In this document: positions 1 to 29,757 of the stretch, piece after piece | Numbering within the stretch: position 1 is the stretch's first letter | Layout: each line of letters begins with the position of its first letter | Source: Alkalihalobacillus bogoriensis ATCC BAA-922 | GTDB lineage: Bacteria > Bacillota > Bacilli > Bacillales > Bacillaceae_F | Assembly (NCBI RefSeq): GCF_000621445.1 | Contig: NZ_JHYI01000042.1 | Span: 1 to 33,020 of the forward strand | Direction: 5' to 3' | Length of the DNA stretch: 33,020 nucleotides | Program-made: the position numbers and the translations under genes | The notes under the pieces: model-generated | What the model was told of the DNA's origin: nothing | What the model saw: only the letters and a program-made list of their open reading frames with translations | Databases searched by the model: none

Positions 1-118
1 ATTGCCCTGATTTTTTACGAAAACTTCCCTCTTCCTTTTTAACGAAAATCGGAAATGTTTATTATTTTTCGGAAGAGAGAATTAGTGGGTCACATAGTAG
101 AGATAAGGAGTTAGGTCA

Positions 119-1873: not shown

Positions 1874-3898
1874 TTATGATGGAGAAACTGATGGCAAAGC
1901 AGAAACCCTTTCTCTCTCGACTTGGTTTAATGATTCGATCCAATATTTAAAGTGATCATAAGTAATATGTTTACTACGAGTAGCTTTTTTAAGTTGTTTT
2001 GCTAAGTTATTTGCTTCTTCAACATTCTGTAAAAACCAACGTAACCTTTCTGGCTTATCCATTTCATCCAGAACTGCAACTTGTTTTTGTTTATGGAAAA
2101 GATAATGCCCCTTTGATACTTGAGGTTTAGATAAGTAAGCTGAATCTGTACTTCCTTGACAATATGGACAATTACAAGCGAGCTGTTTCCCTATTGCTGG
2201 TTCAAATATGTCTTTTAAAGCTTTCTCACTATATGATGTTAGTAGTTGTGGTATATAGTATCTTGGCTTTAAGTGAAAGCCCCCGCCTTCTTCAATCAAT
2301 ATAGACTCTTTAAAATCTTCAATAAAACCTATTCCAGACGAGATAGCAGTAGCTCCCATTGACATAAGACCTAATCCAAAATCATTAACCCTTGATAAAA
2401 CAATTGGTTTATATACTTCACCCAACATGCTAACGATTTTTCCGAAAGCATAATAATGAGCCTTATTAAAAGCATCTAATTTTACATCAAACATTAAGAG
2501 GTACCCATCGGCTTGTATTCGAGTGTAATGGTTTACAATTCTAATTGGACTAATATCATCAGAAATACTTTCTATTTGAATAGAAATTCCAGCATACAAA
2601 GGTCTTGTTTCTCCTATTTCTGCAAGATATTTTCTGCATTCATTGAAAACCTTCAAGTCAATCTCTAACCATGGATCATTGATATTTGCAAGAAAGTGAA
2701 AAGGTGCAACCAATACACTTGGATTTTGCTTTAATTGCCAATCCATTACTTCCTTTGCTCTTAATTGTACCGATTCAAGATCCTTAAAATCCTCTGGTTT
2801 TTCTTTTGTAAATGATGACAAAGCATATGGTAAGTTCACCAATGACTGTACATTACTGAACTTTGAGTATGCGAGCCTATATACTACAGGATCTACCATT
2901 GTAAACCCACCATTATCACGAACATGATTGTATACCTTAGCATACTTTGGAAAAAAGTTTGCTGGAAAGATTATGCCATCTAATTGATGTTCTTCTGAAT
3001 ATTCCTCTATTAAAGTACGTTCATTATGTAATAACCTTGGGAGAAAACGAAGTGAGAGGTCTAAAGAAGGAACGGGAATTTTTTTATCATCAAGACTTCG
3101 TAATTCAGCAAATAATATATCCATGGAGTAATTTCTTCGATGAGGTTGTTTTTCAAGGAGAGTTGCTATAATGTTATCAAGCTTATTAGGTGTAGCAGGG
3201 TTAATACTACTTGCAAATGGTGGCACTTCACTTAAAATTTTATACGGTGCTTCAACTAAACTATGGATCTCTAATGGCAATCTTCCTGTTATCATGTGAA
3301 ATAAGATAGCTCCAAAGCTATATAAATCTGCCCTGAAATCTATATTTTTGCTATCTTTTAATTGTTCAGGTGCCATATAAGCATATGTTCCCATAGGAAC
3401 TCCTGTAGCTGTTAATGTACTTGCATCCAGAAATTTCACAAGTCCAAAATCAAGAATTCTCACATCCCCTAAGCGAGTAATAAAAATATTATCAGGCTTT
3501 AAATCTCTATGAAATAGCCCTCTCTCATGAATTGCATTTAGACCTTCAAGCAACTGCAATCCTATTCTTTGAGTTTGAGATACCGTTAGTTTACCATTAC
3601 GTTCAATAAAAGTACGAAGAGGTTCACCGTCAGCATACTCCATAACGAGGTAACGGTATGTATCAAATCCTTCAGAATGAACTCCATCATCTACGTATTT
3701 TACTATATTCGGATGTTCAACAATTTTTAGAGAATCAATTTCACGTTTTATCCTTTTAACATCTTGACTTGAACGGATCATTTCATTTTTAAATAACTTC
3801 AAAGCAAATTTTTTACCATCTTTCTCTACAAGCCAAGTCTGTCCAAATGTACCTTGTCCTAAAGCTTGAATAATTATATATCCACCAATATTCTTCAT
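1874..3898 (-). CDS. Ser/Thr protein kinase fused to a C-terminal TGT-like (?) domain
   Basis: 674 residues. Residues 1-270 form a bacterial Hanks-type Ser/Thr kinase with a glycine loop (GQGTFG, 14-19), the ATP lysine K34, HRDLKPDN (130-137) and DFG (150-152), followed by an APEQ segment. All catalytic residues are present, so it should be active. There is no membrane segment. Residues ~280-674 are not a usual kinase tail. They contain DNGGF (328-332), a stretch near 500-528 (IVLSRVNDFGLG ... GATAISSGIG), and C575-x-C577-x2-C580 with H602. This resembles the zinc site of tRNA-guanine transglycosylases and their DpdA-like DNA-modifying relatives (inference from motifs). The start is ATG with GGGGAGTGA upstream. 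The kinase call is firm; the C-terminal call is weak. Confidence 0.9.
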   Translation of the reverse strand: MKNIGGYIIIQALGQGTFGQTWLVEKDGKKFALKLFKNEMIRSSQDVKRIKREIDSLKIVEHPNIVKYVDDGVHSEGFDTYRYLVMEYADGEPLRTFIERNGKLTVSQTQRIGLQLLEGLNAIHERGLFHRDLKPDNIFITRLGDVRILDFGLVKFLDASTLTATGVPMGTYAYMAPEQLKDSKNIDFRADLYSFGAILFHMITGRLPLEIHSLVEAPYKILSEVPPFASSINPATPNKLDNIIATLLEKQPHRRNYSMDILFAELRSLDDKKIPVPSLDLSLRFLPRLLHNERTLIEEYSEEHQLDGIIFPANFFPKYAKVYNHVRDNGGFTMVDPVVYRLAYSKFSNVQSLVNLPYALSSFTKEKPEDFKDLESVQLRAKEVMDWQLKQNPSVLVAPFHFLANINDPWLEIDLKVFNECRKYLAEIGETRPLYAGISIQIESISDDISPIRIVNHYTRIQADGYLLMFDVKLDAFNKAHYYAFGKIVSMLGEVYKPIVLSRVNDFGLGLMSMGATAISSGIGFIEDFKESILIEEGGGFHLKPRYYIPQLLTSYSEKALKDIFEPAIGKQLACNCPYCQGSTDSAYLSKPQVSKGHYLFHKQKQVAVLDEMDKPERLRWFLQNVEEANNLAKQLKKATRSKHITYDHFKYWIESLNQVERERVSALPSVSPS

Positions 3899-4205
3899 TC
3901 TTCACTCCCCTTTTCTATTTTCTTACAATTATCTTATACTATAAATGAAGAAATTTCCAAGAAAACTTAGAATTTTTAAACTTCCGAGGTATTATATTCT
4001 AAATATTTGTAATATACATTCCACACTATGGATTACTCAGATTTAATAATCAAATCTCCTCTTCCTAAGTCCAATAGAATTAGTGTTTGGGCTAAAAAAT
4101 TCTCCTTTCCTAAACTTGATAAAATAGACTACTATCGTTCTACCTGTTCAAAAATATCCATATACATTTAATAATTAAGTAATTAGATGAGAGGAATGAA
4201 CATTT
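3899..4205. other. 307-base gap with a possible 47-codon ORF
   Basis: This divergent intergenic region holds the kinase promoter on its left. It also contains an open frame on the plus strand, 4028-4171 (47 residues, beginning MDYSDLIIKS and ending SKISIYI). The frame has no ribosome site ahead of its ATG and an in-frame stop shortly upstream, so it is more likely chance or a gene remnant than a functional gene. Promoter elements for the downstream plus-strand gene are not obvious. Confidence 0.25.
3933..3960 (-). promoter_or_regulatory. Candidate promoter for the kinase gene
   Basis: On the minus strand, TTGGAA (3960-3955) and TATAAG (3938-3933) are separated by 16 bases. They lie about 35 bases upstream of the kinase ribosome site. 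Both boxes are imperfect, so this is moderate evidence. Confidence 0.35.
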
Positions 4206-5264
4206 ATGAGGATAGCAAATGAAACAATAGATGAATTAGTATATATAATAAATGAAACTAAAAGCAGAACAGCTAATGAAATAATCAATTTTTTTAATCA
4301 ATTAGGTTTTAACCATGACTATTCTCATTATCAGAATGCTGGTAGCAAAGCAAAATATACAAGAAGTGTCCTCGAAAGTGTAAATGGTAGTGCACGACTT
4401 AATACAATAGTTGAACAAGCTATACATCCAAGACAGTATATTAACTCAAACGTAAATATAAAAGAGATTGTTAACAAACTCAACGAATTCCTTACCTTTG
4501 ACGGATATGAAATAATTCCAAATGGCAATGATTATTCCATTAAACACAATAAACTAAATCCATCTGGAGAAATCAAGAACTTGATTTTCGCATCTGATGG
4601 ACCAAAACCAGAGATCATATTAAAAAATACGTTAACATATGAAATTGAAGTAGTTGCAAATAAGCAACATATTTTAATCTACGATCACCCAATAACTCCT
4701 GATGGACTAACATGGAGTGAATTATCCGATTGGTATTCAAAAAAATTTAACATAAATCAACATATAGATAGTTCTTTGCACCATAGATTATGGAGGTCAT
4801 TAGGTTCCGATGCGGAGAGGTTTTTTTACCAGAAATACTATGATACTTACGACTTTACTCTTTACAAAAACTTACCTGTGTTAATACCGCAAGTCTATCT
4901 ACATTATGATCCTTATACCATCAAACAACTAAATGGAAATAGTAGAATTCCAAGACAAAGAATGGACTTCTTGATGTTGCTCCCAGAAAATGAAAAAGTT
5001 GTTATTGAAATTGACGGGAAACACCACTACACCAAAGATAACAGCAAAGAATCCTGTACAATTAAATATGCAGAAATGGTTTCAGAGGATAGAAAGCTAA
5101 GATTAGATGGATATGAGATTTATAGAATTGGTGGCTATGAACTAATGTATAGTAATCAACATGAAGAAGAAATGGCAAAAAACGTAGTAACTAATTTTTT
5201 TGAACAATTATTTAAAAAGCACAAAATAAATTTAGTACCTAACAAAACACAAACCACTCCGTAA
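4206..5264 (+). CDS. PD-(D/E)XK-type nuclease with N-terminal helical/sensor-like region
   Basis: 352 residues. The C-terminal third has a restriction-endonuclease-like core: RQRMDFLML followed by VVIEIDGKHHY (about 268-278), which fits the D...E-x-D-x-K pattern of PD-(D/E)XK nucleases of the DUF559/very-short-patch-repair kind, then a basic helix and a YEIYRIGGYEL strand. The first ~120 residues look helical and contain an RLNTIVEQAIHPRQYI stretch like the N-terminal domains of some AbiJ-like abortive-infection proteins (recalled similarity, not tested). No methylase partner lies nearby, so a stand-alone defence nuclease is more likely than classic restriction-modification. The start is ATG with AGAGG upstream. 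Confidence 0.75.
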   Translation: MRIANETIDELVYIINETKSRTANEIINFFNQLGFNHDYSHYQNAGSKAKYTRSVLESVNGSARLNTIVEQAIHPRQYINSNVNIKEIVNKLNEFLTFDGYEIIPNGNDYSIKHNKLNPSGEIKNLIFASDGPKPEIILKNTLTYEIEVVANKQHILIYDHPITPDGLTWSELSDWYSKKFNINQHIDSSLHHRLWRSLGSDAERFFYQKYYDTYDFTLYKNLPVLIPQVYLHYDPYTIKQLNGNSRIPRQRMDFLMLLPENEKVVIEIDGKHHYTKDNSKESCTIKYAEMVSEDRKLRLDGYEIYRIGGYELMYSNQHEEEMAKNVVTNFFEQLFKKHKINLVPNKTQTTP

Positions 5265-5268
5265 ATAA

Positions 5269-5307
5269 GAACAAGGTAAACGAACCGATCATTCGTTTAC
5301 CTTGTTT
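5269..5307. terminator. Bidirectional terminator between convergent genes
   Basis: AACAAGGTAAACGAA (5270-5284) pairs with TTCGTTTACCTTGTT (5292-5306) around a 7-base loop, giving 15 perfect pairs. It lies just after the stop of the plus-strand nuclease gene and faces the end of the minus-strand small gene. Confidence 0.8.
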
Positions 5308-5386
5308 ACTACTATAATCAAAGGTATTTTTTCATAGCTTTACATCTTATCAGATTTTAATTACTGTTAAATTACGCTTTTATAGC

Positions 5387-5662
5387 TTACTCTATTTCAA
5401 CAATTTCCTTTTTTAATAAATCTAAAGCTTCTCTTGAAAAGACACCTTTTTTGTAGGCTTCAATAATCGCTTTCGTAATACTTATCTCATCAAAAGCAGG
5501 CTGTCTTGGAACTCTCATCCCATTCTTTTTATATCTCATTACAACCTGTTCCCCATCTTCTTTCCCATCTACTAACCTGATACATTTATCAATGCAAATT
5601 GAATACGTCCCAGAAACTTTAAACTCCGCTTCAATAATTGGTTTATACGTAATTTCCGCCAA
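5387..5662 (-). CDS. Small hypothetical protein downstream of the GmrSD-like gene
   Basis: 91 residues, not recognised. The N-terminal half looks beta-rich (EAEFKVSGTYSICIDKC), the middle is basic (RYKKNGMRVPRQP), and the C-terminal half is helical (ITKAIIEAYKKGVF ... LDLLKKEIVEIE). The start is TTG with AGGGGGAAT 8 bases upstream. It lies 91 bases after the DUF262/DUF1524 gene on the same strand, so it could be co-transcribed as an accessory gene. That link rests on position only. Confidence 0.6.
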   Translation of the reverse strand: MAEITYKPIIEAEFKVSGTYSICIDKCIRLVDGKEDGEQVVMRYKKNGMRVPRQPAFDEISITKAIIEAYKKGVFSREALDLLKKEIVEIE

Positions 5663-5753
5663 TTGATATTCCCCCTAAATTTTTATCACTCATTTAAACG
5701 TATACGATTAGAATTTTGAGCCACAGTTTTAATGATTCAGCAAAATTTACAAT

Positions 5754-7841
5754 TTACTCTTCTTCCCTATGCTTTTCAAATGACTGCTTAATTAAAATCA
5801 TCGCATACTCAATGTCATCTTCACTTTCAATACCGAACTCAACATCACCATTACCCCATCTTCCTAAGTTAGTTACATCCTTACATATACCATTAGGATC
5901 AAGGATCTCATTAAACGACATATTTAAACTTAAACGAAGCCTACTCTTCTGTGGGACAATATCTACAAAATTAGTTGTTGTTTTATATGCAATATATAGC
6001 TTTTTAAACTCTTCTCTTACAGAACTATCAAGATTGCATATACGTTTTCTAATTACTTCGAATAAGGATAACATTGCTCCAGATAGTTCTGGGAAGTCCT
6101 TGATTGAATATTCTGTGCCCTCATTACCCTTTGGCTTTTTCTTATACTTTTTCAAGTCATCTTCACTGATATCAGGATAGCCCCATACCAATACTGCTTG
6201 ATCAGCCAGCTTTTTAGCTCTATTTATTATTTCTTGCTCATTCCATTCGTTTAGTTTACCTAATCCCCTATTTAACCGTAACGGACTATCAGCAAAACCA
6301 CCATCCATATCACGCTTTTCTCTAAATGGCTTATCACTTAATTCAGAGTTATATCTTGTTAATGTTAAGTTTCCTAAAGTATGTAAATATGTATTCTGAA
6401 TGTCCTTCCAACTTTCTCCAAGATCATTTTGCCATTCAACTGATAAGTTTTCATTTTGAGGCATAATATGCTCAATTGTATAACTTTCAATATTTACAAT
6501 TTCTTTTCGTTGATAGTTCTCTAATTTCCTTAAAAGGTAATTACGATTTCTAAAATTATATACGTCTTTCACTTTAAGTTCTCTGATGAATTCCTCATTA
6601 CTTGGAAACCGTCTATACGAATCTTTTACTGCAAAAACAGCTTTAACACTTTCTAAATAATTCTCTTTATTTATTTCTTTCCCCAACGTTGCAAATGTCT
6701 TATTAAGAGAGTTAGTTGGTACACCACAAATCGCTCTACGGAAAACATATGATTCAACTAATTTTAAAATAGAGATAAATTCAACCTTTTCAATTTTATT
6801 TTTTGTATAATCATCATACATTTCGAGTAAGAAAGGATAAGAAACATCTACTTTTAATGAATTTATATCTTTCAATACCTCGTTAATTTCTTCATCTTTC
6901 TCATTTTGAAAAGCAAGATGAACAAAGTATTTGGAGTATTGATAAATTTCTTTTAGTATAGATTCAATAGAAATTTCGCTTTTTTGATTAACATAATCTT
7001 TAAAATCAGCATATACATTTCTGATATTTGGGATTTTTCCTGTTTTTAAGGTCAAATAATCACGCATAAACCTATCAAAAATCGCTGTTTCATTAAGATT
7101 TGAAAACCCTTTCTCCATTGGATGCCAATAATTCTTATACAATACTTCTTGTTCCTTTGGTTCTAACTTCATTAAAACGTAATTACGTATTAAATCTGCC
7201 TGTGATAAGTCAAGCCCTGTTGAATTTAAACTCTCAAAAATCAGTTGTGGATTATCATGGTCACGATCAAGAGATATGTCTACTACAATTAGCTTTGATA
7301 GCCCCCTATAAAGCGAGTTTAAATTTATTCCACTCTTCTTAATTTGATTTAAGAAAAATTGAAAGTTATTATGTACTCTTGGTGAATATTCATTAGGTAG
7401 CTCTTCATCATTTATTAGACTAATTAGTGTTTCTTTATCAGTTTGAGTCAAAAGCAATTTATGATAGAGTTCGTTCTCCTCATCATTATTCACCAAATAA
7501 TAATTCTTAATTTTTTTATTGGTTATATCAACATCTTGATCAGTAACTTTAATTTCACGACCTAATGCTAAGAGCAACAATGTTAAAGTAGTCATCCTCT
7601 GCTGACCATCTATTACAAGTAATTGAGGAACTGCCGATATTTGATATAAACCTTTTTCAATATATACAATTGAACCTACAAAATGTCCTTTTACTTCATC
7701 ATCTAAAGAAGCTCGTACAACATCATTCCAAAGTTGTTTACACTGATCAATAGTCCAGCTATATTTCCGTTGATAAATTGGTATAATAAATTGTTTTGTA
7801 CCTTGAAGAAACTTTAAAAAATTTGTTTCTGAAGCTTTCAC
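5754..7841 (-). CDS. DUF262/DUF1524 (GmrSD-like) protein, probable type IV restriction/defence nuclease
   Basis: 695 residues with the full GmrSD-type layout. The N-terminal DUF262 domain has IPIYQRKYSW (20-29) and DGQQR (78-82), the ParB/sulfiredoxin-like nucleotide-binding motif, plus the conserved FESLNSTGLDLSQADLIRNY segment (202-221). The DUF1524 HNH domain has IEHIMPQ (456-462) and TLGNLTLT (488-495). The last ~120 residues resemble the DUF5655 tail seen on some of these proteins. Family members cut modified (for example glucosylated hydroxymethylcytosine) phage DNA, using nucleotide triphosphate in the DUF262 half. The modification recognised here cannot be read from sequence. The start is GTG behind a GGGGGG ribosome site. 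No frameshift or loss of catalytic motifs was seen. Confidence 0.9.
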   Translation of the reverse strand: MKASETNFLKFLQGTKQFIIPIYQRKYSWTIDQCKQLWNDVVRASLDDEVKGHFVGSIVYIEKGLYQISAVPQLLVIDGQQRMTTLTLLLLALGREIKVTDQDVDITNKKIKNYYLVNNDEENELYHKLLLTQTDKETLISLINDEELPNEYSPRVHNNFQFFLNQIKKSGINLNSLYRGLSKLIVVDISLDRDHDNPQLIFESLNSTGLDLSQADLIRNYVLMKLEPKEQEVLYKNYWHPMEKGFSNLNETAIFDRFMRDYLTLKTGKIPNIRNVYADFKDYVNQKSEISIESILKEIYQYSKYFVHLAFQNEKDEEINEVLKDINSLKVDVSYPFLLEMYDDYTKNKIEKVEFISILKLVESYVFRRAICGVPTNSLNKTFATLGKEINKENYLESVKAVFAVKDSYRRFPSNEEFIRELKVKDVYNFRNRNYLLRKLENYQRKEIVNIESYTIEHIMPQNENLSVEWQNDLGESWKDIQNTYLHTLGNLTLTRYNSELSDKPFREKRDMDGGFADSPLRLNRGLGKLNEWNEQEIINRAKKLADQAVLVWGYPDISEDDLKKYKKKPKGNEGTEYSIKDFPELSGAMLSLFEVIRKRICNLDSSVREEFKKLYIAYKTTTNFVDIVPQKSRLRLSLNMSFNEILDPNGICKDVTNLGRWGNGDVEFGIESEDDIEYAMILIKQSFEKHREEE

Positions 7842-7908
7842 TGAATTCCCCCCTCAAACTTATATCACTCAACTAATCATATTGTAACAAAAAAATGGTT
7901 TATATTGG

Positions 7909-7948
7909 TACATAACTTAATTCCGCCCTATTTTACAACTGTTATGTA
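7909..7948. repeat. 8-bp inverted repeat in a divergent promoter region
   Basis: TACATAAC (7909-7916) and GTTATGTA (7941-7948) are exact inverted copies 24 bases apart, in the 208-base gap between the divergent GmrSD-like and TIR genes. They could be an operator for one or both promoters. The TACATAAC core also occurs in the repeat at 17554-17570, which may be chance. Confidence 0.35.
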
Positions 7949-8049
7949 ATTTTAGTATTTAACCCCTTCTACAAATGGAAATTTATTGTTATATTATCTG
8001 TATTAAGTAGAGCAAGAAAATTAGCTACGTACAATGGAGGATCTATATA

Positions 8050-8892
8050 ATGTATTACCATGCTTTAGTGGAAATTGAAGAGATAAAAGGTAAAAAAGAA
8101 AGTACAAAGGAAATTTTCGAATTAGACAAAAATAATAGAGAAATTATCTTGAATGAAGTTATAATTCCATATTTAAAAAATGAGGAATTTCAATTTAATG
8201 GATACTTTCTTAATCCAGAAGATATTAGAAGAATAGTAGTTAAAACAACTCAGCAAGCTACAAGAGATTTATCTAAATATGAAAATGATAATATGGCTCC
8301 TGGTTTAATAATGTATATTTCTCCTGAAGATATTTTGTCTTACGATAATTATACTACAGACATTACTAAAGATATTTTCTCAGAAGGAAGAAGTCTATTA
8401 AAGAACGATGTATCACTTAATTCAAATACAAAGCATAATCAAATAATTGATAGAACAAAAGTATTTATTGTTCATGGTCATGATGATTTAGCAAAGATTA
8501 GTGTAGCCAGATTTATTGAAAAACTTGGCTTAGAACCTATAATTCTTCATGAACAAGCAAGCTCAGGGAAGACAATAATTGAAAAAATAGAATCTTATTC
8601 TAATGTCGGTTTTGGAATTATAATTTATACTCCTTGTGATATTGGTGGAAAAAAAGATACTGATAAATTTAAACCGAGAGCCCGACAAAATGTTGTTTTT
8701 GAACATGGATTCTTAATGGGGAAAATAGGAAGAAATAATGTCTGTGCCTTAGTTAAAGATGAATTGGAAACTCCAAATGACATTTCAGGTGTAGTTTACA
8801 TATCATTAGATCCACATAACGCTTGGCAGATCGCTGTAGCAAAAGAATTAAGAAACTCAGGATACAATGTTGACATGAACCATGTTCTTTAA
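8050..8892 (+). CDS. TIR-like (PF10137 type) predicted NAD-cleaving effector
   Basis: 280 residues. The C-terminal half is the TIR-like domain found in CBASS/Pycsar-type effectors and other defence proteins: KVFIVHGHDD (137-146), EQASSGKTIIEKIE (168-181), and ARQNVVFEHGFLMGK (211-225), whose Glu218 is the expected NAD-hydrolysis residue. The first ~130 residues are a separate domain with NPEDIRRIVVKTT (55-67), presumably the sensing or oligomerisation part. No nucleotide cyclase lies nearby, so this is not an obvious CBASS or Pycsar operon. A ParB-like gene follows 66 bases downstream on the same strand and is the best candidate partner. The start is ATG with GGAGG upstream. Activated TIR proteins of this type deplete NAD and stop growth of infected cells (family knowledge). 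Confidence 0.88.
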   Translation: MYYHALVEIEEIKGKKESTKEIFELDKNNREIILNEVIIPYLKNEEFQFNGYFLNPEDIRRIVVKTTQQATRDLSKYENDNMAPGLIMYISPEDILSYDNYTTDITKDIFSEGRSLLKNDVSLNSNTKHNQIIDRTKVFIVHGHDDLAKISVARFIEKLGLEPIILHEQASSGKTIIEKIESYSNVGFGIIIYTPCDIGGKKDTDKFKPRARQNVVFEHGFLMGKIGRNNVCALVKDELETPNDISGVVYISLDPHNAWQIAVAKELRNSGYNVDMNHVL

Positions 8893-8958
8893 ACACCTAC
8901 TCTTTTATAACAGATAACGAAATTATTAAGATTCTAATGCTTATAATAGGAGGTATGG

Positions 8959-9846
8959 ATGAGAGAACATCGCTATCCAAAACTAAGTGAAGAGCATATA
9001 TTAAATCTATTAACTCAAAAAGGGGTAAAGTCCGACTATATACGCAATTTAAAAAAAAGGAAAATATTAGATGTGAATGACGGATTATATGATCGAAATA
9101 AGGAACCTTTATCGAATGTGCCTATACCTGTAAATAAAATTGTTAAAACGCATAGACTACACTGCTCAGTCAATGGAAATTGGTGGGATACAATTTTTAA
9201 TAATAGCTTACATAATGTTAGTACAAATAAGTGGTTTAAAATACAACGTAAGTTCGAAGAATTATCTTTAAATGCTTTTTATGAATGGTACGATAATGAA
9301 CTTCCACCTATAGAAAATGCAAGTTATTTTGAAGACATCGACTTATTTGTAGTTGAAGAGGGACATCATAGAACATGTTGGGCTATCCTTAGTAATGTAA
9401 AGTCTATAAAAGTTAAAGAATTGTATATATATTCACTAAATAAAACAAAAGTTCAGGAAAGAAAAGAAAGTTTAAAAAGGAAAAATAAATTGATAAAGGA
9501 TATAACAAAATTAGAGCATAAATTTTTTAATATGCTCCTTCAACTTAATTTCACATACGAAAACGATCAAAATATAACTTATAATAGTAACCCCGTCTTT
9601 TATTTAAAAAAGCCTGATAGCCTAAGTCTTGATACTAATGAACACTACTTATCTTCCTATATAACTAACTTAAAAGTTATCATTTCAAAAATAGAAAAAG
9701 TTATAGAGGCCGATAACAAATGGCGTAAAATACCAAATGCTCACATTAGGTATTTCATTTTAAAACTCTATAACACATTTAAAAGTTCCTATTCAGAACA
9801 GATATTAGAAAAACTATACAAGTTTGGTTGGGAGAAAAAAAGTTAG
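8959..9846 (+). CDS. ParB/sulfiredoxin-like domain protein next to the TIR gene
   Basis: 295 residues. About residues 50-160 resemble a ParB/Srx fold: a strand with PIPVNKIVKTHRLH, a tryptophan-rich NGNWWDTIF, and EEGHHRTCWAI, which matches the ParB-box style (E/D)GxHR signature that binds nucleotide in this superfamily. The C-terminal half is helical and very lysine-rich (KTKVQERKESLKRKNK), so nucleic-acid binding is possible. There is no helix-turn-helix of plasmid ParB, and a ParM-type system does that job elsewhere in this window, so a partition role is unlikely. Tandem position after the TIR gene suggests a two-gene defence unit (inference). AGGAGG lies 5 bases before the ATG. Confidence 0.6.
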   Translation: MREHRYPKLSEEHILNLLTQKGVKSDYIRNLKKRKILDVNDGLYDRNKEPLSNVPIPVNKIVKTHRLHCSVNGNWWDTIFNNSLHNVSTNKWFKIQRKFEELSLNAFYEWYDNELPPIENASYFEDIDLFVVEEGHHRTCWAILSNVKSIKVKELYIYSLNKTKVQERKESLKRKNKLIKDITKLEHKFFNMLLQLNFTYENDQNITYNSNPVFYLKKPDSLSLDTNEHYLSSYITNLKVIISKIEKVIEADNKWRKIPNAHIRYFILKLYNTFKSSYSEQILEKLYKFGWEKKS

Positions 9847-15071: not shown

Positions 15072-15881
15072 CTAAACCATTAAATCCTTGATGCTTTTAG
15101 AGAAATCAATAGACTGAGTCAAATCTATAACTACTTCCTTCTTTGCCAATAAATAACGAAACAAAAATAACCCTAATCCTCTTTGTAAGCTCTCTTGCTT
15201 CTCAAACTTCTTGGTAACTTCTTTTAACGGAATATGATCATTTTCCATGAGATAGCGAAAAAATAGAACTGATAATTGATCTTTATCAGAGTGTTTTTCA
15301 TTGTCACTTAACATTGTTTCTCTTATCCATTCAATATTTTTAGCAAGCTGTCTGGACAATTGCTTTTCAGTAACAATCTTCCAATCAACTTTTTTATTTA
15401 GCCAATACCTTCTCTCAATTTCAAGCTTCTCCCATGTAATATTCCGCTTTAGTTCGGATGAGTTTTTTATTGTTCTCGCAACGTATTCTTCATTACCTTC
15501 ACTCTTTTTAACAGTTAATAGAAAATTTGTAGTGATTACATACGGTTCTTTCGTTTCTTTATCGCAAAATTTATCAAACCGAAGATCATCTTTATCATCT
15601 ATAACTTCCATAACATCCAGCAGTGGGTAAGATTCACGAATATCCACCACTTTAGTACAATGCTCAAATATTAAAAAAGCTCGATATTGATTGTCTGATT
15701 GCAAATGATGAGTTCTTCCTGTCTTCAAACCAAAAGTTCTTGTTGCTCTACCCTTCGAAGAAAACTCTTGTGAATATGTTTTTGTCCAGGGGATGTATTC
15801 TTTACCAATCCCCTGACCTCTTCCTTCTTTTAAATATTTTTTTACTTTTGAATTAGATTCATAATAAGGTGAAATATTCAT
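15072..15881 (-). CDS. tnsA: TnsA-family protein with two substituted catalytic residues
   Basis: 269 residues, close to Tn7 TnsA (273) and alignable from KEGRGQG (18-24) through DIRESYPLLD (80-89) to EKLEIERRYW. In Tn7 the 5'-strand nuclease centre is Glu63, Asp114 and Lys132 (recalled from the literature). Here the corresponding residues are Gln65 (SDNQYRAF, codon CAA at 15689-15687), Asn119 (VITTNFLL, codon AAT at 15527-15525) and Lys139 (ARTIKNSS). Both acids are lost and the lysine kept, while the rest of the fold and the TnsC-binding C-terminal region look conserved and the frame is open. It may thus be structural rather than catalytic. The start is ATG with GAAGGGA upstream, 30 bases after the recombinase stop. 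Confidence 0.9.
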   Translation of the reverse strand: MNISPYYESNSKVKKYLKEGRGQGIGKEYIPWTKTYSQEFSSKGRATRTFGLKTGRTHHLQSDNQYRAFLIFEHCTKVVDIRESYPLLDVMEVIDDKDDLRFDKFCDKETKEPYVITTNFLLTVKKSEGNEEYVARTIKNSSELKRNITWEKLEIERRYWLNKKVDWKIVTEKQLSRQLAKNIEWIRETMLSDNEKHSDKDQLSVLFFRYLMENDHIPLKEVTKKFEKQESLQRGLGLFLFRYLLAKKEVVIDLTQSIDFSKSIKDLMV

Positions 15882-15910: not shown

Positions 15911-16798
15911 CTACACATGTAAATTTTCAACCGCTCGTTGTTTATCTTCAGCACTTGAATTTACGTAAAATCTGTAAAGTGTATCAACTGAGCTGTGGCC
16001 GCTTAATATCGCAACAGTTTTCACATCGACATTGCCTTCTTTAATCAGATTTGAGCAAAATGTATGTCTCGCCATATGTGGAGTTACTATATAATCAAGT
16101 TGTGCCATTCTACTATATTTCTCTAAAATTTTATTGATCGCTAATCTTGTTAACGCTCCCCGTTGTCCTTGCAATAATTTTTGCGATTGAATAATTGGTC
16201 GAATTTCCAAATAGTTTTTAACTGCGTTCACAACTTGAGCATTCAGATTAACTTTTCTAAGCTTGTTTCCTTTCCCACTTCTTATCAAAACGTAACTGTA
16301 ATTATACTTGCCGTTCCGATCTGTAATGTGAATATCATCCACTTCTATTGAGACTAATTCGCTACAACGAACACCTGTTGCAAATAATAGGTAATAGATT
16401 AGGATATCTCTTTTATTTCCCTCTGCTTCTATTGTTCGCTTTAATCTATATAAGTCTTGCTTTTCTACCACTTTGACTTCGTAATCCAGCTCAATGTTAT
16501 TTTTCTGTAAGACTTTCTTCAAATCTACTTCCTCTTTACAAACACCTTGACTAAGAAGAAAACGTTGATATTGAACTATGCTTTTTAATTTTCTGTTTAT
16601 GCTGGTCACCTTCAACTTTTTAATCAAGTTTAAATATTGACGGTACTCTCGTAGATCCGTTTCAGTTATAACGTCTGTTTTATATCCGATTGTTTGTTCC
16701 CACCAATCCATGAATTGTTTTACATCCTGGCAGTATGCTTTAATAGTCAATTGACTTTTACCTTGTGCTACCAATTCTTTTTTAAAGAACATAATCAT
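15911..16798 (-). CDS. Tyrosine recombinase, candidate cointegrate resolvase of the Tn7-like element
   Basis: 295 residues with an N-terminal SAM-like core-binding domain (1-100) and a C-terminal catalytic domain. The catalytic set is complete: R144 (TGVRCSEL), K176 (RSGKGNK), H241-x2-R244 (HMARHTF), H268 (LSGHSS) and Y278 (YRFYVN). The size fits XerC/D, TnpI and short integrases, and there is no arm-binding domain like those of phage-type integrases. It lies in the tns operon directly upstream of tnsA, and a repeat cluster that could be its site lies upstream of the operon promoter. Roles to consider are resolution of replicative transposition products, plasmid dimer resolution, or integration of another element. 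ATG with GAGGGAGAG upstream. Confidence 0.9.
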   Translation of the reverse strand: MIMFFKKELVAQGKSQLTIKAYCQDVKQFMDWWEQTIGYKTDVITETDLREYRQYLNLIKKLKVTSINRKLKSIVQYQRFLLSQGVCKEEVDLKKVLQKNNIELDYEVKVVEKQDLYRLKRTIEAEGNKRDILIYYLLFATGVRCSELVSIEVDDIHITDRNGKYNYSYVLIRSGKGNKLRKVNLNAQVVNAVKNYLEIRPIIQSQKLLQGQRGALTRLAINKILEKYSRMAQLDYIVTPHMARHTFCSNLIKEGNVDVKTVAILSGHSSVDTLYRFYVNSSAEDKQRAVENLHV

Positions 16799-17458: not shown

Positions 17459-17570
17459 CTTCTACATAATTGTTAGTTATGCATAGAGTTCAAACTTATT
17501 AAGAGATTAAAGTACAGTATATTCCCTTTGATTTTAATAATTAAGAACGGTAAAACTCTATACATAACTA
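17459..17570. repeat. Inverted-repeat cluster, candidate recombination (res) site
   Basis: TAGTTATGCATAGAGTT (17474-17490) and AACTCTATACATAACTA (17554-17570) are inverted copies with 16 of 17 matches, 63 bases apart. A weaker copy, CTTCTACATAA (17459-17469), faces the first of these across a 7-base spacer (17470-17476), with 7 of 11 arm positions matching. Two ~11-base arms around a 6-8-base spacer is the layout of a tyrosine-recombinase core, and the outer copy would be an accessory binding site. The cluster ends 22 bases upstream of the -35 box of the tns promoter. Alternative readings are TnsB-binding sites of a transposon end (the minus strand reads TGTAAAATAG from 17577) or an operator. 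Confidence 0.5.
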
Positions 17571-19895: not shown

Positions 19896-19922
19896 AATGG
19901 CTTGCAGCCGCAAGCCATTTTA
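19893..19922. terminator. Bidirectional terminator
   Basis: AAAATGGCTTGC (19894-19905) and GCAAGCCATTTT (19910-19921) form a perfect 12-pair stem with an AGCC loop. It has A-rich and T-rich flanks, so it serves the convergent XRE and primase-helicase genes. It overlaps the stop of the latter. Confidence 0.85.
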
Positions 19923-21905
19923 TTTCTCTCTAAAAAACTGATACTTTGTAAAGTAATCATATCTAATTTGTCCTGATGCCTCTCCAAAACGGTTTTTCAG
20001 AATTTGCAACTCCAGCTCCCGAGGGAACTTTTTCTTCAACTGATCTAACATCTCCCTCTTCTTTTGCTCATCTTTTTGCATTGCAATCTGATTAACGTTA
20101 CTAAATTGCAATCCCATTACAACATCTGCAGAGTATTCAATCGTTCCCGACTCTTTGAAGCTTTCAAACCCAACGGACACATTATAATTTGTGCGATTAA
20201 GCGAAGAGATTACTAACAAAGGTACATTATAATCACGACTAATTTGCTTTAACCTTGTAACTACTGCATCAATATTACTTCTCTCACCGATACTTGAACT
20301 TTTAGATAGTTTAATAATCTGCAAATAATCTACAACAACCACAAACCGATTATGATAGCGTTTAAATCGTTTCAGCTTTGCTTCTAACTGCTCTAAACTT
20401 TCGCCTAAGTTTCCTTGGTGAATAATTATATTTTCTGCCACTTTTTTATAACCCTGTTTCAACTCTTCCAAAAACAAAGGATTAGCTTTACCCGTCTTAA
20501 TTTCTATATCTGTTAACGCATTACTTTTGCTCTTTATAAAGCTCAATCGGGATAAGCTTCTTGCCATTAAATCTTTTCTACTCATTTCGTATGAAAAATA
20601 AAGCGTTGGGATACCGTTTTCTGCAATTTGATCAGCTATTTGATGAACAAAAGCTGTCTTTCCAAGCGAAGTGGGACCACCCAATACATACAGTCCTGGA
20701 TAAAGTCCTCCATTTAAAATAGAGTCTAATCCTGGAAAACCGCTACAAATCGGTTGATTTTCACTATTACGAATTTCTTCAAAGAAATTATCGAAGTAAT
20801 TTACAAGAAACTCGCCTTGCCTATCGGTGTGAACCTCTTGAACAGCAACTTTAAGAAAGCTACCTAAATCTTCTCGATCTGCTTTGAGAAAATCATTCGT
20901 ATCTTTATAGTCAGCAGGAATTCTTTTTATCAAATAATCTATATCCAATTGCGAAAACTCTTCATTTACTTTATTTAATAATTTCTCGCCTTCTTCATCA
21001 TTGTCGGGAATAATGACAAAAGTCTTTGAAAGTGCATGATCGTAATTATCTTTTACAAGCTGAATTAGCTTATTAACATTGCTAACACTGTTAAGTCCAA
21101 TAGCTGGATAATCGAACTCTTCAATAGATAATGCATCAAAATAACCTTCTACAATGAAGAGAACATCATATTGGTTCGGAGCTTTAAGATACCTTTCATT
21201 TAATAATTGTACGCTAAATCCCTTTAAGTTCTTTGTTTTTTGAGTTTTAAACTTTTCTGCATTTGGAGAATTGTCATCTCTTCTTGGGATGAAGTAACTA
21301 CATTTACCTACCTCATCGAAAATAGGGAGAAAATACTTATACATTTTTGTAATATCATTTGGCTTTTCTTCTATATCTGGGTGATTGTTAATTGCAAAAT
21401 CTAAACCTTCTTTTGCATAGCCTAACTTGTATTTGTTAATTGTCTTAGCAGTAAGTCCTCTTTCATTAGTAAAATAATCCGTTTCATCAATATTATTGTG
21501 TGCCATTTCTATCAATTGAGTAAAATCTACTTCATTTGTTTTTAATTCATTTTCTTTATTCGTTTCCTTGAAAGTTATTGGGCTCATTGGTTTTACCTCC
21601 ACATCAGATGATATATTTGCTAATTCCAATAGCTTTTGAATAGCCTCTTTCTTTGATAAGTGTTCATAGTCTTCCATAAAAGTGATGATATCCCCACCAT
21701 GAGTACATTCATTAAAAGATTTGTAGAGTTGCTTGTGCTCATCTACTTTAAAGTGATTACTCTTCTTACCGCAAAAAGGACATGGGATTAGAAAAGTATT
21801 ACTACCTATTTTTTTAGATTTGCTCATGGTTGTCATTTCAATATACTGCAGTAGTGGAACTCTTTGTTTTGCTTTATCAAGTCGTAGTTGGCTATCAACA
21901 GTCAT
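19920..21905 (-). CDS. Primase-helicase (CHC2 zinc finger, Toprim, DnaB-type helicase)
   Basis: 661 residues from the ATG at 21905, chosen because GGAGGTGGT precedes it; an upstream in-frame start has no such site. Domains: CHC2-like zinc finger (CPFC at 42-45, then ECTHGGD near 66-72), Toprim (FIVEGYFDAL and VIIPDNDEEG), and a RecF/DnaB-type helicase with Walker A GPTSLGKT, SYEMSRKDLMARSLSR, Walker B VVVVDYLQI and a late SGTIEYSADVV stretch. This is the T7 gp4-like bifunctional design used by phages and plasmids to prime and unwind DNA at their own fork. Three iterons and the initiator gene lie immediately upstream, giving a self-contained replication module. Confidence 0.9.
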   Translation of the reverse strand: MTVDSQLRLDKAKQRVPLLQYIEMTTMSKSKKIGSNTFLIPCPFCGKKSNHFKVDEHKQLYKSFNECTHGGDIITFMEDYEHLSKKEAIQKLLELANISSDVEVKPMSPITFKETNKENELKTNEVDFTQLIEMAHNNIDETDYFTNERGLTAKTINKYKLGYAKEGLDFAINNHPDIEEKPNDITKMYKYFLPIFDEVGKCSYFIPRRDDNSPNAEKFKTQKTKNLKGFSVQLLNERYLKAPNQYDVLFIVEGYFDALSIEEFDYPAIGLNSVSNVNKLIQLVKDNYDHALSKTFVIIPDNDEEGEKLLNKVNEEFSQLDIDYLIKRIPADYKDTNDFLKADREDLGSFLKVAVQEVHTDRQGEFLVNYFDNFFEEIRNSENQPICSGFPGLDSILNGGLYPGLYVLGGPTSLGKTAFVHQIADQIAENGIPTLYFSYEMSRKDLMARSLSRLSFIKSKSNALTDIEIKTGKANPLFLEELKQGYKKVAENIIIHQGNLGESLEQLEAKLKRFKRYHNRFVVVVDYLQIIKLSKSSSIGERSNIDAVVTRLKQISRDYNVPLLVISSLNRTNYNVSVGFESFKESGTIEYSADVVMGLQFSNVNQIAMQKDEQKKREMLDQLKKKFPRELELQILKNRFGEASGQIRYDYFTKYQFFREK

Positions 21906-21952
21906 CTTGAACCACCTCCAAAATGATTTTTCTTTCTTCATTGTCTTTGAAA

Positions 21953-23130: not shown

Positions 23131-23510
23131 TTCTATCACCTCACCTTTTTTTGTTATTGTAATTTACTCTTAGTATTAGTTGGTTGACCACAGGCAACAT
23201 TTTTTATGACTATTGTCTTATTTGCTTGTCAATATATATCTTACTTCCTTCATCTACAGTTGTATATATTAAAACAGTTCGAGTACGTTCGAGCTAAATA
23301 TGTGAATGAGAGTGCAGCCGAAGGCTACACTCTCATTCCTGCTTGTTATTTAATAGAACATTATCGACCATGAATTCGTATTCATGGTTCCATTGTTATG
23401 ACAAAATCATATTCTCAAACTGTCATTCGACAATTTTTCTATTAAATTCAGTTATAAATAGGACTTTGTCGCATATAAGAAAGAAAAATCAAATTCAAGG
23501 AGGGATTACA
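23131..23510. other. 380-base control region between initiator and partition genes
   Basis: Besides the initiator promoter, this gap holds a tandem GTTCGAG repeat with 10-base period (about 23277-23292). It also holds a strong hairpin, GAATGAGAGTG (23304-23314) against CACTCTCATTC (23328-23338) with an inner GCC/GGC pair set. An 8-base inverted repeat CCATGAAT (23368-23375)/ATTCATGG (23380-23387) follows, then an ATGACA ... TGTCAT pair near 23395-23426. ParM/ParR systems keep their centromere (parC) repeats and their own promoter in this position, so this is the best candidate for parC. No iteron copies were found here. Confidence 0.45.
23204..23232 (-). promoter_or_regulatory. Candidate promoter of the initiator gene
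   Basis: On the minus strand, TTGACA (23232-23227, consensus) and TCATAA (23209-23204) are separated by 17 bases, about 75 bases before the start codon. A second, weaker pair, TTGCCT and TACTAA, lies downstream. Confidence 0.5.
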
Positions 23511-24512
23511 ATGTTAAACCAGCACTATTTTATTGCTATTGACAGCGGTAAAAGTTATACCAAATATGCTTTTAGGAATGAAGAAAATATGATTGAAAAA
23601 GGGAGATTTCCCACCAAAGTAGCTGAGGTTAATAGTAGCTTTTCCGACCTAACAGGAAAAAATGAAATGATACTTTATAACGGTAAGCATTACCTTGTTG
23701 GTGAAATGTTATCAGATGAAAATTCAAACTATGACCTCACAAAGCAGACCATCGACCATCTTTTATGTATTTATCTCGCTATTGTTAAAGTCCTCGATAA
23801 GTCAGATTCAATACCTGCTTTAGCAAATATTCACCTTGCTGTTAATACCCCATTATTGCTTTATAAAAATGAAAAATTAAAAAAAGAATTCGAGAACTTT
23901 ATTAAACAAGATGGAAATGTTATTGGAATAGAAATCAACAACAAGCCTTTCTCTTTTAAAATCTCCACAGTTTCTATTCTTCCAGAATGCATCGGGCCAC
24001 TCTACTACAATACAAGTAGTTTTAGAGATAAACGTTTGTTAATCATGGATTTTGGCTCATTAAATGTTAGTTTCCTTGAAATGAATAACCTTATTCCACA
24101 GTATGATCGCATGGTTACTGCAACAGCAGGTGTTAATATTCTTAGAGCAAAACTGACAGAAATGCTAACATCCAAACATGGAATAGCCTTATTTGACGAT
24201 GATGTTGAACAAATTCTTAAAACTAAAACGGTGAATTTATTTGGAGAAAAGCAAGAAGAAAGTACAAAGTTGGTTAAAACGTTAATACAAGAGCATATTA
24301 GACAAATTATGAACTATGCTAAGAGCCGAAAAATATCTATTAACTCTATTGATAACATCATTCTCGTAGGCGGGGGCAGTATATTGTTAAAAAGTGAATT
24401 ATTAGAACAACTACCCTCAGCTCTTGTCTATCCAGATGCTCACTTTTCAAACGTACTTTCCTTTCTTCGTATTCTGGAGGCGAAGCAACATGAAAGAAGA
24501 ACAAAGACTTAG
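23511..24512 (+). CDS. ParM-like actin-type plasmid segregation ATPase
   Basis: 333 residues from the ATG at 23511, which follows AAGGAGGG; the open frame further upstream is not coding. It has the actin-fold nucleotide signatures: phosphate-1 YFIAIDSGKSYTKYAF, phosphate-2 LLIMDFGSLNVSF, and the adenosine motif IILVGGGSILL near the C-terminus. ParM-type proteins polymerise into filaments that push sister plasmids apart. It is followed by a small ribbon-helix-helix gene whose start overlaps its end, the normal parM-parR order. Divergence from classic ParM is high, so it may belong to another Alp family. Confidence 0.85.
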   Translation: MLNQHYFIAIDSGKSYTKYAFRNEENMIEKGRFPTKVAEVNSSFSDLTGKNEMILYNGKHYLVGEMLSDENSNYDLTKQTIDHLLCIYLAIVKVLDKSDSIPALANIHLAVNTPLLLYKNEKLKKEFENFIKQDGNVIGIEINNKPFSFKISTVSILPECIGPLYYNTSSFRDKRLLIMDFGSLNVSFLEMNNLIPQYDRMVTATAGVNILRAKLTEMLTSKHGIALFDDDVEQILKTKTVNLFGEKQEESTKLVKTLIQEHIRQIMNYAKSRKISINSIDNIILVGGGSILLKSELLEQLPSALVYPDAHFSNVLSFLRILEAKQHERRTKT

Positions 24513-24829: not shown

Positions 24830-27800
24830 TTACTGATTTTCTTTCAAAATCAATTGCTCTGGCTCACGTAGCTCCATCCAATCGTGACTTGTGTCAGTTA
24901 CCACTCGATAGTTAACACCAATCTTCTCAAAATATTTTATTGCACAGAGAATTTTACGTTTTTCGTGCGGGAACCGTAAATCATCCAGCTTTACCCCACC
25001 TTTTGTTTCTCTTATCAGTTCAAGTTTATGCTTACCATCATTATATTTACGTACAATAGCCCAATCGGGATTGTAGTTTCCTATTATTTTAGGCAGTAAT
25101 ATTTTGAATTTTGGTGGGAACTTAAAGTAGAGCAACGTATCATCACGTTCAACATCTGGCTTAATTAAATCCTCTATAAAGTTTCTTTCAACATCTGAAT
25201 CTACTTGAACTTTATCGTATAAGCCAGCTATTCCAGCTTCCACTAATTCTCTCTGAGGTTGTTTCAATTCTATCGGGAATAGCTCGTCTACTTCATAAAC
25301 ATCCGTATTCTCATCTATTTCAAATTCGATATTATCAACAATATGATCGCTTAATGTAATTCGAATTTGGCTCAAGAACTCGCTAATCCAACCTTCTGGG
25401 TTATAAAATATCTTTTCTTTTTGTTCGTTTTTCATACGCTTGAATATTTCGAATATAGTCTTCTTCGTGAGTTTTGTTTCATTTGCAGTACGAGTAATAA
25501 AATCAGGTATTGGGTACGTTGCCTTTTCAGCTTGCTCCACTTGTTTCTTCGGCTTTTCAGCTTTTTCTGCATGGAATTTATATGGCTCAAATTTCTTTAC
25601 AGTGATTTCATTTGTAAATTTTACATATGGTTCACCGTACTTTTCATCAATTTGAAGCACTTTAAATCCTCGTAAACGTTCATCTCTCGTAATTCTTTTC
25701 AAATCATCGTTTACTGATACATATAATTCATTTTCTAAATTATTCCCTTTAGAATCTTCCATTTTAATCTTGATCTTTGCACGTTCTCCATCAAGTTCAA
25801 CAAGTGATATTTTATATTCACACATGATAAAGCGACCTTTTGTTACTTCAATTAAAGCAGAAGGGAATTTTGTAATATTGAGCCTATCAACACATTCTTT
25901 AATTAGCTTTTCAGTATCAATAGCTACTTTGTAACTCATCTTCTTATTTAACTTGCTCCAAAACTTAGTAAACTCTTCTGAATTGTATAGTTCATCTTTA
26001 CGTTTAACAATACTTTGCTCTGGCTTTTTAGGTGGTGGCGGTGCGTCTGTTCCGTCTTCAATATATTCTTGCTGTAATCGGGAGACGAATGATTCATATT
26101 GCTCATTTGCCACGACAGTTAATACGTTTACATCATGATTTTCTGTTCGTTTTCCTTCTTGATTTACTGCTAATCGTAAACCACGACCAATCTCTTGACG
26201 TTTTTTCATCGTAGAACTTGTCTGATTTAAGGTACAAATCTGGAACACGTTTGGATTGTCCCAACCTTCTTTTAAAGCCGAATGAGCAAAGATAAATGAC
26301 ACAGGCTCTTCAAAGCTTAACAAGCGTTCTTTATTCTTCATGATTAACTCAAATGCTTGTTTTTCCATTTCTTTTTGTTTTTGATTTTTACCTTCAGTGT
26401 CTACTGCATCTTCCTCAGGAGAATCAGCTTTTGGCTTTGCAAAATACCCTTGCCTTACATCACTTGCTGATTTATCTTTAAAATCATCGTAATGTCTTTT
26501 CAAGCGTTCGAAACTTTCATCAAATAATCGTTTGATCATACCGTCTTGTGCAGTATAATTTTTCACTCTATCAATAAAGAACAGGGATAAAACCTTTATA
26601 CCCTCTGCCCTTAAAGCTTGTTGGCGTTGTAAATGAACACTGATCGTTCTTTCAATTTGTGCTCTAAAAATACTTTCCTTTGACAACATGGAATCACTTA
26701 CTGACAACCTTATGTCATTTTCAAATGAAAGGACTTGTTCATCTTCATTTCTACCATATCTAATTTCAGCTACTTTGAAGTGCTCATAATCGAGATTTCT
26801 CGTTTTAGTAAATAGATCGTCACCCTGTTTTAGAGAAATATCTCGTTCAACCTTCTCACCTTGATCCATTACTAATGCTCTTACTGTAGCGGTTAGTGGA
26901 TTTCGTTTTACTTCTAACAATCGCAAAACCGTTTCATTCAAATTCCCTAATTCAGAAACCCCAATTACTTCTATCTGCTTTACCAAATTATTTCGGAATG
27001 CATCAATAGGAGTTAGTCGATATAACAAGTTTGGTGTTTCTCTATGTGTTGCTGAATATCGTAAGACAAATAAAGGTTTTAGCGTACGAATTGCTTCTTT
27101 TGCCTTAGCAGTCTCATAGTTTTGTGCTTCATCTAAAATCATGATTGGTCTTGTCGCTTGGATATATTGATACGGCTTCCATTCTCCTTGAAGTTTTTCC
27201 GTATGTTTAAAGATGTTATTACTTGCTTTGTTGAAAGCGTCTATGGTCATGACCATAACTGTTAAGTCAGTATTGCTCGCAAATGTATTCAACTCACCTA
27301 ATTTAGCACTATCATAGGCTACCGCAGTTACATCTTGATTGTCATATAACTGACGAAAGTGATTTCTCATTGTTGATATCGACTTCATTACCCCCTGATA
27401 AATTGCAACAGACGGTACAACAATAATGAATTTAGTAAATCCGTATCTCTTCTTTAATTCATACATTGTTCTTAGATACACATACGTTTTTCCTGTACCT
27501 GTCTCCATCTCCACTGTGAAATGCGGAACTCGAAAAGAGTCATTTCCCGCAACTTCCAAAACCATTCCATCGTCTACATACAAATCATCCGCTACTTCCA
27601 ATTCACTACCACGTTTTTCATCGTTATTTCTTTCTTGAACGACTTGTAGGTTTTCAAGAAGAAGGATTTCGTCTAATATCTCATCGGCTGGAAAGTTTGG
27701 AGCAACGTCATTCGTTGTACCCGTAAACATATCCTTTTGTTCTTGATAAGGAACACCCTCGAACAAGTCCACTACGCTGGAGATGGCATCTAATTGGAAC

Positions 27801-27841: not shown

Positions 27842-27855
27842 TTCAACCACCTCCG

Positions 27856-29754: not shown

Positions 29755-29757
29755 TTT

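Follow-up and report, generated by a model that had tools for sequence, protein, structure and literature searches.

Tn7-like elements with a TnsA that has lost its catalytic acids, and their probable integration as whole plasmids in Bacillota

We describe a clade of TnsA proteins from the Bacillota in which the acid at the position of Tn7 Asp114 is absent from all 66 non-redundant members (Thr in 25, Asn in 23, Ser in 18), while it is missing from none of 53 other TnsAs. The tns genes are not enclosed by the transposon ends but belong to a plasmid-like backbone, an arrangement that goes beyond what an earlier note on this DNA had claimed. We consider it highly likely that the plasmid-like element integrates whole, as a cointegrate made by replicative transposition, and that TnsA serves as a subunit that does not cut.

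The analysis is centred on the window, i.e. the whole stretch of 33,020 nucleotides from Alkalihalobacillus bogoriensis ATCC BAA-922 that was analysed (contig NZ_JHYI01000042.1, C33 below). In Tn7 chemistry, TnsB joins the 3′ ends to the target and TnsA cuts the 5′ ends. The original Tn7 work is said to have found that a cointegrate results when TnsA does not cut. For a CRISPR-associated transposon (CAST) with a TnsA active-site mutant, the sections consulted of one study report more than 95% cointegrates, with the donor backbone between duplicated mini-transposons (PMC8188705).

MATERIALS AND METHODS

The 80 named loci come from one scan of GTDB genomes with a three-protein alignment; they are the best 80 of 302 candidates and are biased towards kin. 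Less biased additions were drawn from 299 genomes of the order (66 with a PF08722 match) and 299 of the phylum (17 with a match), and stretches of up to 20 kb were taken for most PF08722 matches other than long fusions. Of the 158 loci, 147 yielded a TnsA open reading frame (151 frames) and the 11 others were dropped, as were weak matches and proteins of fewer than 225 aa. Four plasmid-borne controls were added, and the resulting 135 proteins were reduced to 120 at 97% identity. The 67th protein without Asp (L195), a divergent 250-aa row on a long branch, was excluded from later counts.

We call TnsAs with Asp in the Asp114 column Asp-type, and the 66 described above the clade. Gene families near the loci were counted in comparable stretches of about 10 kb on each side, at 66 clade and 49 Asp-type loci; the 49 are the 53 minus the four plasmid-borne controls, which were left out of the scan with recombinase profiles. 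Fourteen loci with a dead TnsA were examined for flanking copies.

RESULTS

Gene content of the window

The features of the window are collected in Table 1. TnsB and TnsC occur together with both TnsA and a TniQ/TnsD-type protein, and the window is therefore Tn7-like by the definition in the consulted part of a 2024 review (TnsB and TnsC plus TnsA and/or TniQ; PMC11406308). The same stretch holds plasmid genes for replication (the primase-helicase) and segregation (the ParM/ALP-type actin), both assigned by Pfam. Small plasmids provide the best matches of the primase-helicase, which cover most of the protein at about 31% identity. The cargo resembles defence genes: a Ser/Thr kinase, an AbiJ-like protein, CAP12/TIR and type III restriction-modification, as well as UvrD with a PD-(D/E)XK protein. 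An Rfam search returned 0 matches.

Table 1. Features of the window, in window coordinates
Feature	Position	Strand	Remarks
Last 94 bp of a 314-bp transposon copy	1..94	+	Compact TnsB-type sites; terminus ..GGGTCACA
Backbone start (TAGTAG) after the partial 314-bp copy	95		
Defence-like cargo	1874-9846 and 24830-32992		
TniQ/TnsD-type target selector, 523 aa	9914..11485	-	PF15978 and PF06527
tnsC-type AAA+ ATPase, 502 aa	11433..12941	-	AAA_22 and TniB matches
tnsB, DDE transposase, 710 aa	12925..15057	-	Pfam; D290, D378, E413 (alignment ORF numbering)
tnsA, 269 aa, intact	15072..15881	-	Q65 = Tn7 E63, N119 = D114; K139 = K132 and E156 = E149 kept
Tyrosine recombinase, 295 aa, directly upstream of tnsA	15911..16798	-	PF00589; XerC/D-like below equivalog cut-offs
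Inverted pair AGTTATGYATASAGW, about 80 bp apart	17475..17570		Candidate backbone site for resolution or partition; comparable sites in L009, L011, L005, L007
Four-helix-bundle (S23/Avd-like) protein, 141 aa	17612..18037	-	
Backbone gene, 283 aa	18323..19174	-	Weak KaiC-like match below cut-off
DnaG/DnaB-type primase-helicase, plasmid-type replication gene	19920..21941	-	Pfam
Backbone protein, 314 aa	22195..23139	-	No Pfam or NCBIfam match
ParM/ALP-type actin, plasmid segregation type	23343..24512	+	Pfam

The inverted pair may be a dimer-resolution, partition or origin site. Pairs like AGTTATGYATASAGW are also seen in L009 and L011, with sites in L005, L007 and, more weakly, L008; single ones lie upstream of tnsA in L029 and L049.

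A TnsA clade without catalytic acids

The earlier note had placed Gln65 at Tn7 Glu63, Asn119 at Asp114 and Lys139 at Lys132 in an intact tnsA, and alignment confirms each of these. Out of Glu63, Asp114 and Lys132, the residues expected of a cut-and-paste TnsA, the window's protein keeps the lysine only. Among the 120 proteins, the Asp114 column holds Asp in 53, Thr in 25, Asn in 23 and Ser in 19. A quick tree built without the two active-site columns separates 66 of the 67 non-Asp proteins from all others by a branch with an SH-aLRT of 98. The Glu63 state changes at least six times within the clade on the TnsA tree, and Gln at this column occurs only in proteins that have lost Asp114. In PLSDB all 501 TnsA matches are below 60% identity.

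In 16 of 16 clade pairs the dN/dS of tnsA is 0.08-0.19, which is comparable to tnsB of the clade (0.05-0.13 in the 14 pairs measured) and to tnsA of Asp-type pairs (0.10-0.43, n=4, the highest at a dS of 0.06). Judged by these ratios, clade tnsA is under purifying selection. Decay or sequencing error is rejected, given the clade-wide loss together with this selection. The same two results support the earlier proposal of a natural Tn7-like element whose TnsA is probably non-catalytic, and no close homologue with a normal Glu/Asp pair was found. In TnsB, D, D and E are retained in 60/60 clade and 46/46 Asp-type proteins.

Could TnsA still cut, by way of a rebuilt metal site? Acids gained at window columns 75 or 89, for example, might act with E156 and K139. 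Acids are gained in the clade at three columns (75, 89 and 202): at column 75 in 64% of clade against 2% of Asp-type proteins (Cys in the window's TnsA), and at column 89 in 80% against 28% (Asp in the window's TnsA). Furthermore, Lys132 is kept in 66/66 clade proteins and Glu149 in 45/66. Against this, Asp114 is lost in 66/66, Glu63 in 47/66 (retained in 19) and Glu149 in 21/66, yet all of these, like Lys132, are invariant in the 53 Asp-type proteins, and cointegrate-type insertions occur within the same clade. In the sequence alignment no other acids take the two sites themselves, the gains at 75 and 89 being in two other columns. We regard a rebuilt site as very improbable. The clade has also mostly lost other columns conserved in Asp-type proteins, namely window column 84 (Gln in 53/53, 5/66 in the clade), column 97 (Ala in 50/53, 0/66) and column 172 (an acid in 51/53 versus 24/66). 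A search with PF11426, a TnsA-interaction domain, gave no match in the four TnsCs searched (two Asp-type and two of the dead clade).

A 314-bp transposon and the insertion in the window's genome

The window begins within a 314-bp unit that runs TGTGCATTTAAAATAAAC...GGGTCACA and has the TGT..ACA ends typical of Tn7. It holds three exact, spaced putative TnsB-type sites that share an orientation, and two or more compact ones, with 3 mismatches each, in the opposite orientation. The unit has no plausible gene; its longest open reading frame, with a TTG start, has 64 codons and runs out of the unit. Complete units are found at the ends of contigs C9 (preceded by TTTTC), C28 (followed by TTTTC) and C23, and the TTTTC of C28 lies at the 3′ terminus of a gene for an RNA uracil-5-methyltransferase (PF05958). 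The plasmid-like element thus appears to sit in the chromosome between two 314-bp copies, with a 5-bp duplication, TTTTC. These junctions, like those of C32 below, are read from contig ends of a draft assembly, and the window's ends are known from contig overlaps only. When end arrays were searched for de novo within the window and L007, none was convincing.

An empty site is seen in a genome of the same genus (G002), which lacks the insertion and matches the joined flanks at 94% over 165 columns across the junction, with the outermost 91 bp on one side unmatched. In the window's own genome, the matches of the two flanks share exactly 5 bp. Among the six relatives searched, five matched, mostly on the gene side only, and one clearly spans the junction. 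G002 also has partial matches to the methyltransferase 3′ end about 18 kb apart (C1:723759-723824 and 741274-741321), perhaps other islands that use the same site.

A second insertion in this genome involves contig C32, which ends in a 478-bp unit that is also found 117 bp past glmS (C38). ACTTT stands on both outer sides (C38 and C20). The stretch from glmS to the insertion is present twice, once per side (L297 on C20, 218-309; L296 on C38, 478-569), with 97.8% identity over 92 bp, and represents a duplicated attachment region.

The path C23-unit-C33 may be a circle or a tandem. No free circle was seen, and the C23-transposon-C33 junction is only a hint of one.

The same geometry at other loci

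Of the 14 loci with a dead TnsA, six have the full geometry with matching outer 5-bp duplications: the window (TTTTC), C32 (ACTTT), G354 (CCCAT), G596 (AAAAT), G598 (ATTAT) and G599 (CTATT). A further four are partial and four show no flanking copies. At the six loci the tns genes lie outside each R-L unit, between two complete R-L copies, rather than between one L and one R end. TGT..ACA ends, arrays of putative TnsB-type sites and a 5-bp duplication accompany them in the window and the five others. These insertions agree with the earlier suggestion that loss of TnsA catalysis would lead to replicative transposition and cointegrates, the product being seen here as genomic geometry only (6/14 loci).

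Direct copies flank the tns genes in Filobacillus milosensis (G598), Bacillus sp. B1-b2 (G599) and Cytobacillus massiliigabonensis (G596), in the order glmS, [R-cargo-L], tnsABCD ... recombinase ..., [R-cargo-L], chromosome. In G598 the two copies agree at every position for 2,805 bp, and in G599 for 3,181 bp, with no N. In G596 both copies are interrupted by an N run that has an 812-bp repeat on its two sides, and 1.0 kb to either side of the run is identical between them. The inner 5-mers of these three do not match each other, and TAGTT is found on the L side. In G354, two direct units of 1,179 bp with CCCAT outside flank the tns genes on a single contig of 3.09 Mb.

These details bear on two ways in which such copies might arise without replicative transposition. 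Misjoined repeats could produce duplicated ends as an assembly artefact, and the window's genome, G594 and G595 are indeed drafts, with N runs in G596. However, the G354 copies share one 3.09-Mb contig, those of G598 and G599 contain no N, and the outer duplications match; we judge an artefact to be extremely unlikely. Alternatively, if a resident copy underwent RecA crossing-over with a circle that has a single copy, the same order of parts would result, and two separate insertions might also leave flanking copies. This requires an earlier solo insertion at the same base, it leaves the dead TnsA unexplained, and the combination of matching outer and non-matching inner 5-mers recurs at six loci, in several genera and at two kinds of target, so that we think it quite improbable.

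The partial cases are G383 (direct copies of 1.44 kb, no duplication found), G594 (end motifs at both contig ends), and G595 and C26 (contig ends with arrays that by eye resemble transposon ends). No flanking copies were found in G260, G572, G600 and G609 in the 40-120 kb searched; a 2.8-kb repeat in G260 was considered as a flanking copy and rejected, as the repeat is coding. Self-comparison of 29 further clade loci gave no flanking copies, in stretches of up to 20 kb that are too short for this purpose. Three out of three Asp-type controls (60 kb each) have no flanking direct repeat over 72 bp, the only repeats being 70-72 bp at 86-88%.

Two side observations concern these loci. Just after copy 2 in G354 (L261/L260, 239980), a third R-type end lies beyond the right-hand duplication, which suggests a tandem of elements at one site. 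On C27 of G594 (start of L243 and end of L244) the backbone beside the copies is self-complementary, TTTTTGTAACTA / TAGTTACAAAAA, and these inner flanks may be a functional site and not the remnant of an earlier target duplication.

Backbone families and site-specific recombinases

Plasmid-like families recur in the neighbourhood of the clade. The four-helix-bundle family is found at 23/66 dead-TnsA loci, the ParM/ALP actin family at 11/66 and a D5/DUF5906 helicase at 5/66, each against 0/49 Asp-type loci; further families of unassigned function show the same absence (0/49). That said, ParM, D5 or a 484-aa protein that looks primase-like (Pfam gives a weak HTH match only) is present at only 15/66 clade loci, again against 0/49.

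A co-directional Tyr or Ser recombinase lies within 1 kb upstream of tnsA at 35/66 clade but 0/49 Asp-type loci, with at least 600 bp of upstream sequence available for 62 of the 66 and 45 of the 49. Recombinases of 150-360 aa occur anywhere in the stretch examined at 48/66 against 0/49. The recombinase profiles were seeded from three genes of the dead clade, which may inflate both contrasts. Larger recombinases lie near 3/49 Asp-type loci, and the plasmid-borne control L217 carries a gene annotated as a site-specific integrase, about 5.5 kb upstream of tnsA. Within the subclade that includes the window, 19/20 loci have the upstream gene. A Ser recombinase gene overlaps the start of tnsA. The idea that a recombinase always stands beside tnsA was refuted, since in the glmS- and rpsI-adjacent groups a Tyr recombinase is encoded 25-35 kb downstream, on one contig and strand with tnsA, in 7 of the 12 clade genomes inspected. 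The class of recombinase switches at least seven times on the TnsA tree, or 14 times when size is counted.

These recombinases raise the possibility of a replicative transposon like Tn5053, with a dead TnsA, which moves as R-tns-L and whose recombinase resolves cointegrates to simple insertions. The gene directly upstream of tnsA at 35/66 loci, with its changes of class, would fit, as would the lack of flanking copies in G260, G600, G572 and G609, and the logic is known for tnsA-less elements (consulted parts of PMC8649781 and PMC11406308). However, six loci have their tns genes external to the R-L unit, between two copies that have stayed unresolved, and the window's unit is just 314 bp without a plausible gene. 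We thus hold this explanation to be unlikely. A recombinase site was looked for inside the 314-bp unit and none was found. Under whole-circle integration, the recombinase may serve in plasmid dimer resolution or circle release.

DISCUSSION

We propose the following course of events for integration of the whole circle. The circle would carry a short transposon whose TnsB-type sites are spaced at one end (three of them) and compact at the other. The remainder of the circle would hold tnsABCD, genes for replication and segregation, the gene of a site-specific recombinase, and cargo resembling defence genes. As a safe target, TnsD and TnsC would pick the 3′ terminus of a conserved gene, where TnsB would cut the 3′ ends and join them to the target. 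With a TnsA unable to cut the 5′ ends, the circle would stay attached. Replication would then pass through the short transposon and double it, leaving the whole circle between two direct copies with the 5-bp duplication outside. TnsA would be kept as a structural or regulatory subunit; its conservation suggests that it might recruit TnsB and TnsC and hold the ends.

This architecture supplies an evolutionary reason for the loss of cutting. A TnsA that cut would move the 314-bp unit only, stranding the machinery and breaking the circle, so loss of cutting is to be expected. Selection on a TnsA without its cutting acids also implies a role beyond cutting. On a broader view, and with somewhat more confidence for than against, we suggest that integrative plasmids of this kind are widespread in the Bacillota, the Tn7 transposase having been made into a plasmid integrase through the loss of TnsA activity. 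A transposon of a few hundred bases would then be the attachment site, and the whole plasmid would lie between direct repeats at a chosen gene end, releasable by recombination of the repeats, in parallel to an LTR-bounded element.

The likeness to Tn7 is considerable: the gene order of TnsA/B/C and TniQ-TnsD, TGT..ACA ends, spaced and compact TnsB-type sites, a 5-bp duplication, and glmS as one target (the R end of L026, read by hand, is about 25 bp past the stop). The differences are that TnsA here lacks Glu63 and Asp114, that the tns genes are outside the R-L unit, and that the donor backbone is retained between two copies. In effect, nature would have repeated a classic laboratory experiment, in which killing TnsA turns Tn7 from cut-and-paste to cointegrates.

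D114A is reportedly a laboratory active-site mutant of Tn7 TnsA, and D90 of the CAST TnsA is presumably the equivalent of Tn7 D114. As far as the consulted sections go, the D90A CAST (PMC8188705) resembles our loci in the changed active-site Asp and in product geometry, whereas the loss described here arose in nature, is fixed throughout a clade and is maintained by selection.

The circle of TnGBS is said to integrate with a DDE enzyme. Integrative plasmids and ICEs of the TnGBS type therefore share DDE-driven integration of a circle, but here it would proceed via a short-transposon cointegrate. Replicative transposition is also common to the Tn5053 family and type V-K CASTs; tnsA is absent from these, while here it is intact and selected. 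Many tnsA-less branches, V-K excepted, carry a Ser or Tyr recombinase, according to portions of PMC8649781 and PMC11406308, and the latter, a 2024 review, links tnsA-less elements with resolvases. In the portion consulted, Benler 2021 (PMC8649781) predicts that elements with a resolvase but no tnsA transpose replicatively, and judges serine resolvases that co-occur with tnsA unlikely to act in this process. A dead TnsA removes this objection for the present clade.

According to part of PMC8725734, plasmids of B. cytotoxicus carry tnsABCD and an integrase gene. The consulted portions of that paper, of Faure 2023 (PMC10293859) and of PMC3401170 do not describe the integration mode of a dead TnsA. 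Likewise, among the open-licence PMC matches listed, no title or start of an abstract points to a natural clade of catalytically dead TnsAs or to such integration. The system may also become a tool for inserting entire plasmids at a selected position in the chromosome.

Finally, on one complete chromosome of Alicyclobacillus mengziensis, two dead-TnsA loci with Ser recombinases (L017 and L020) lie about 84 kb apart.
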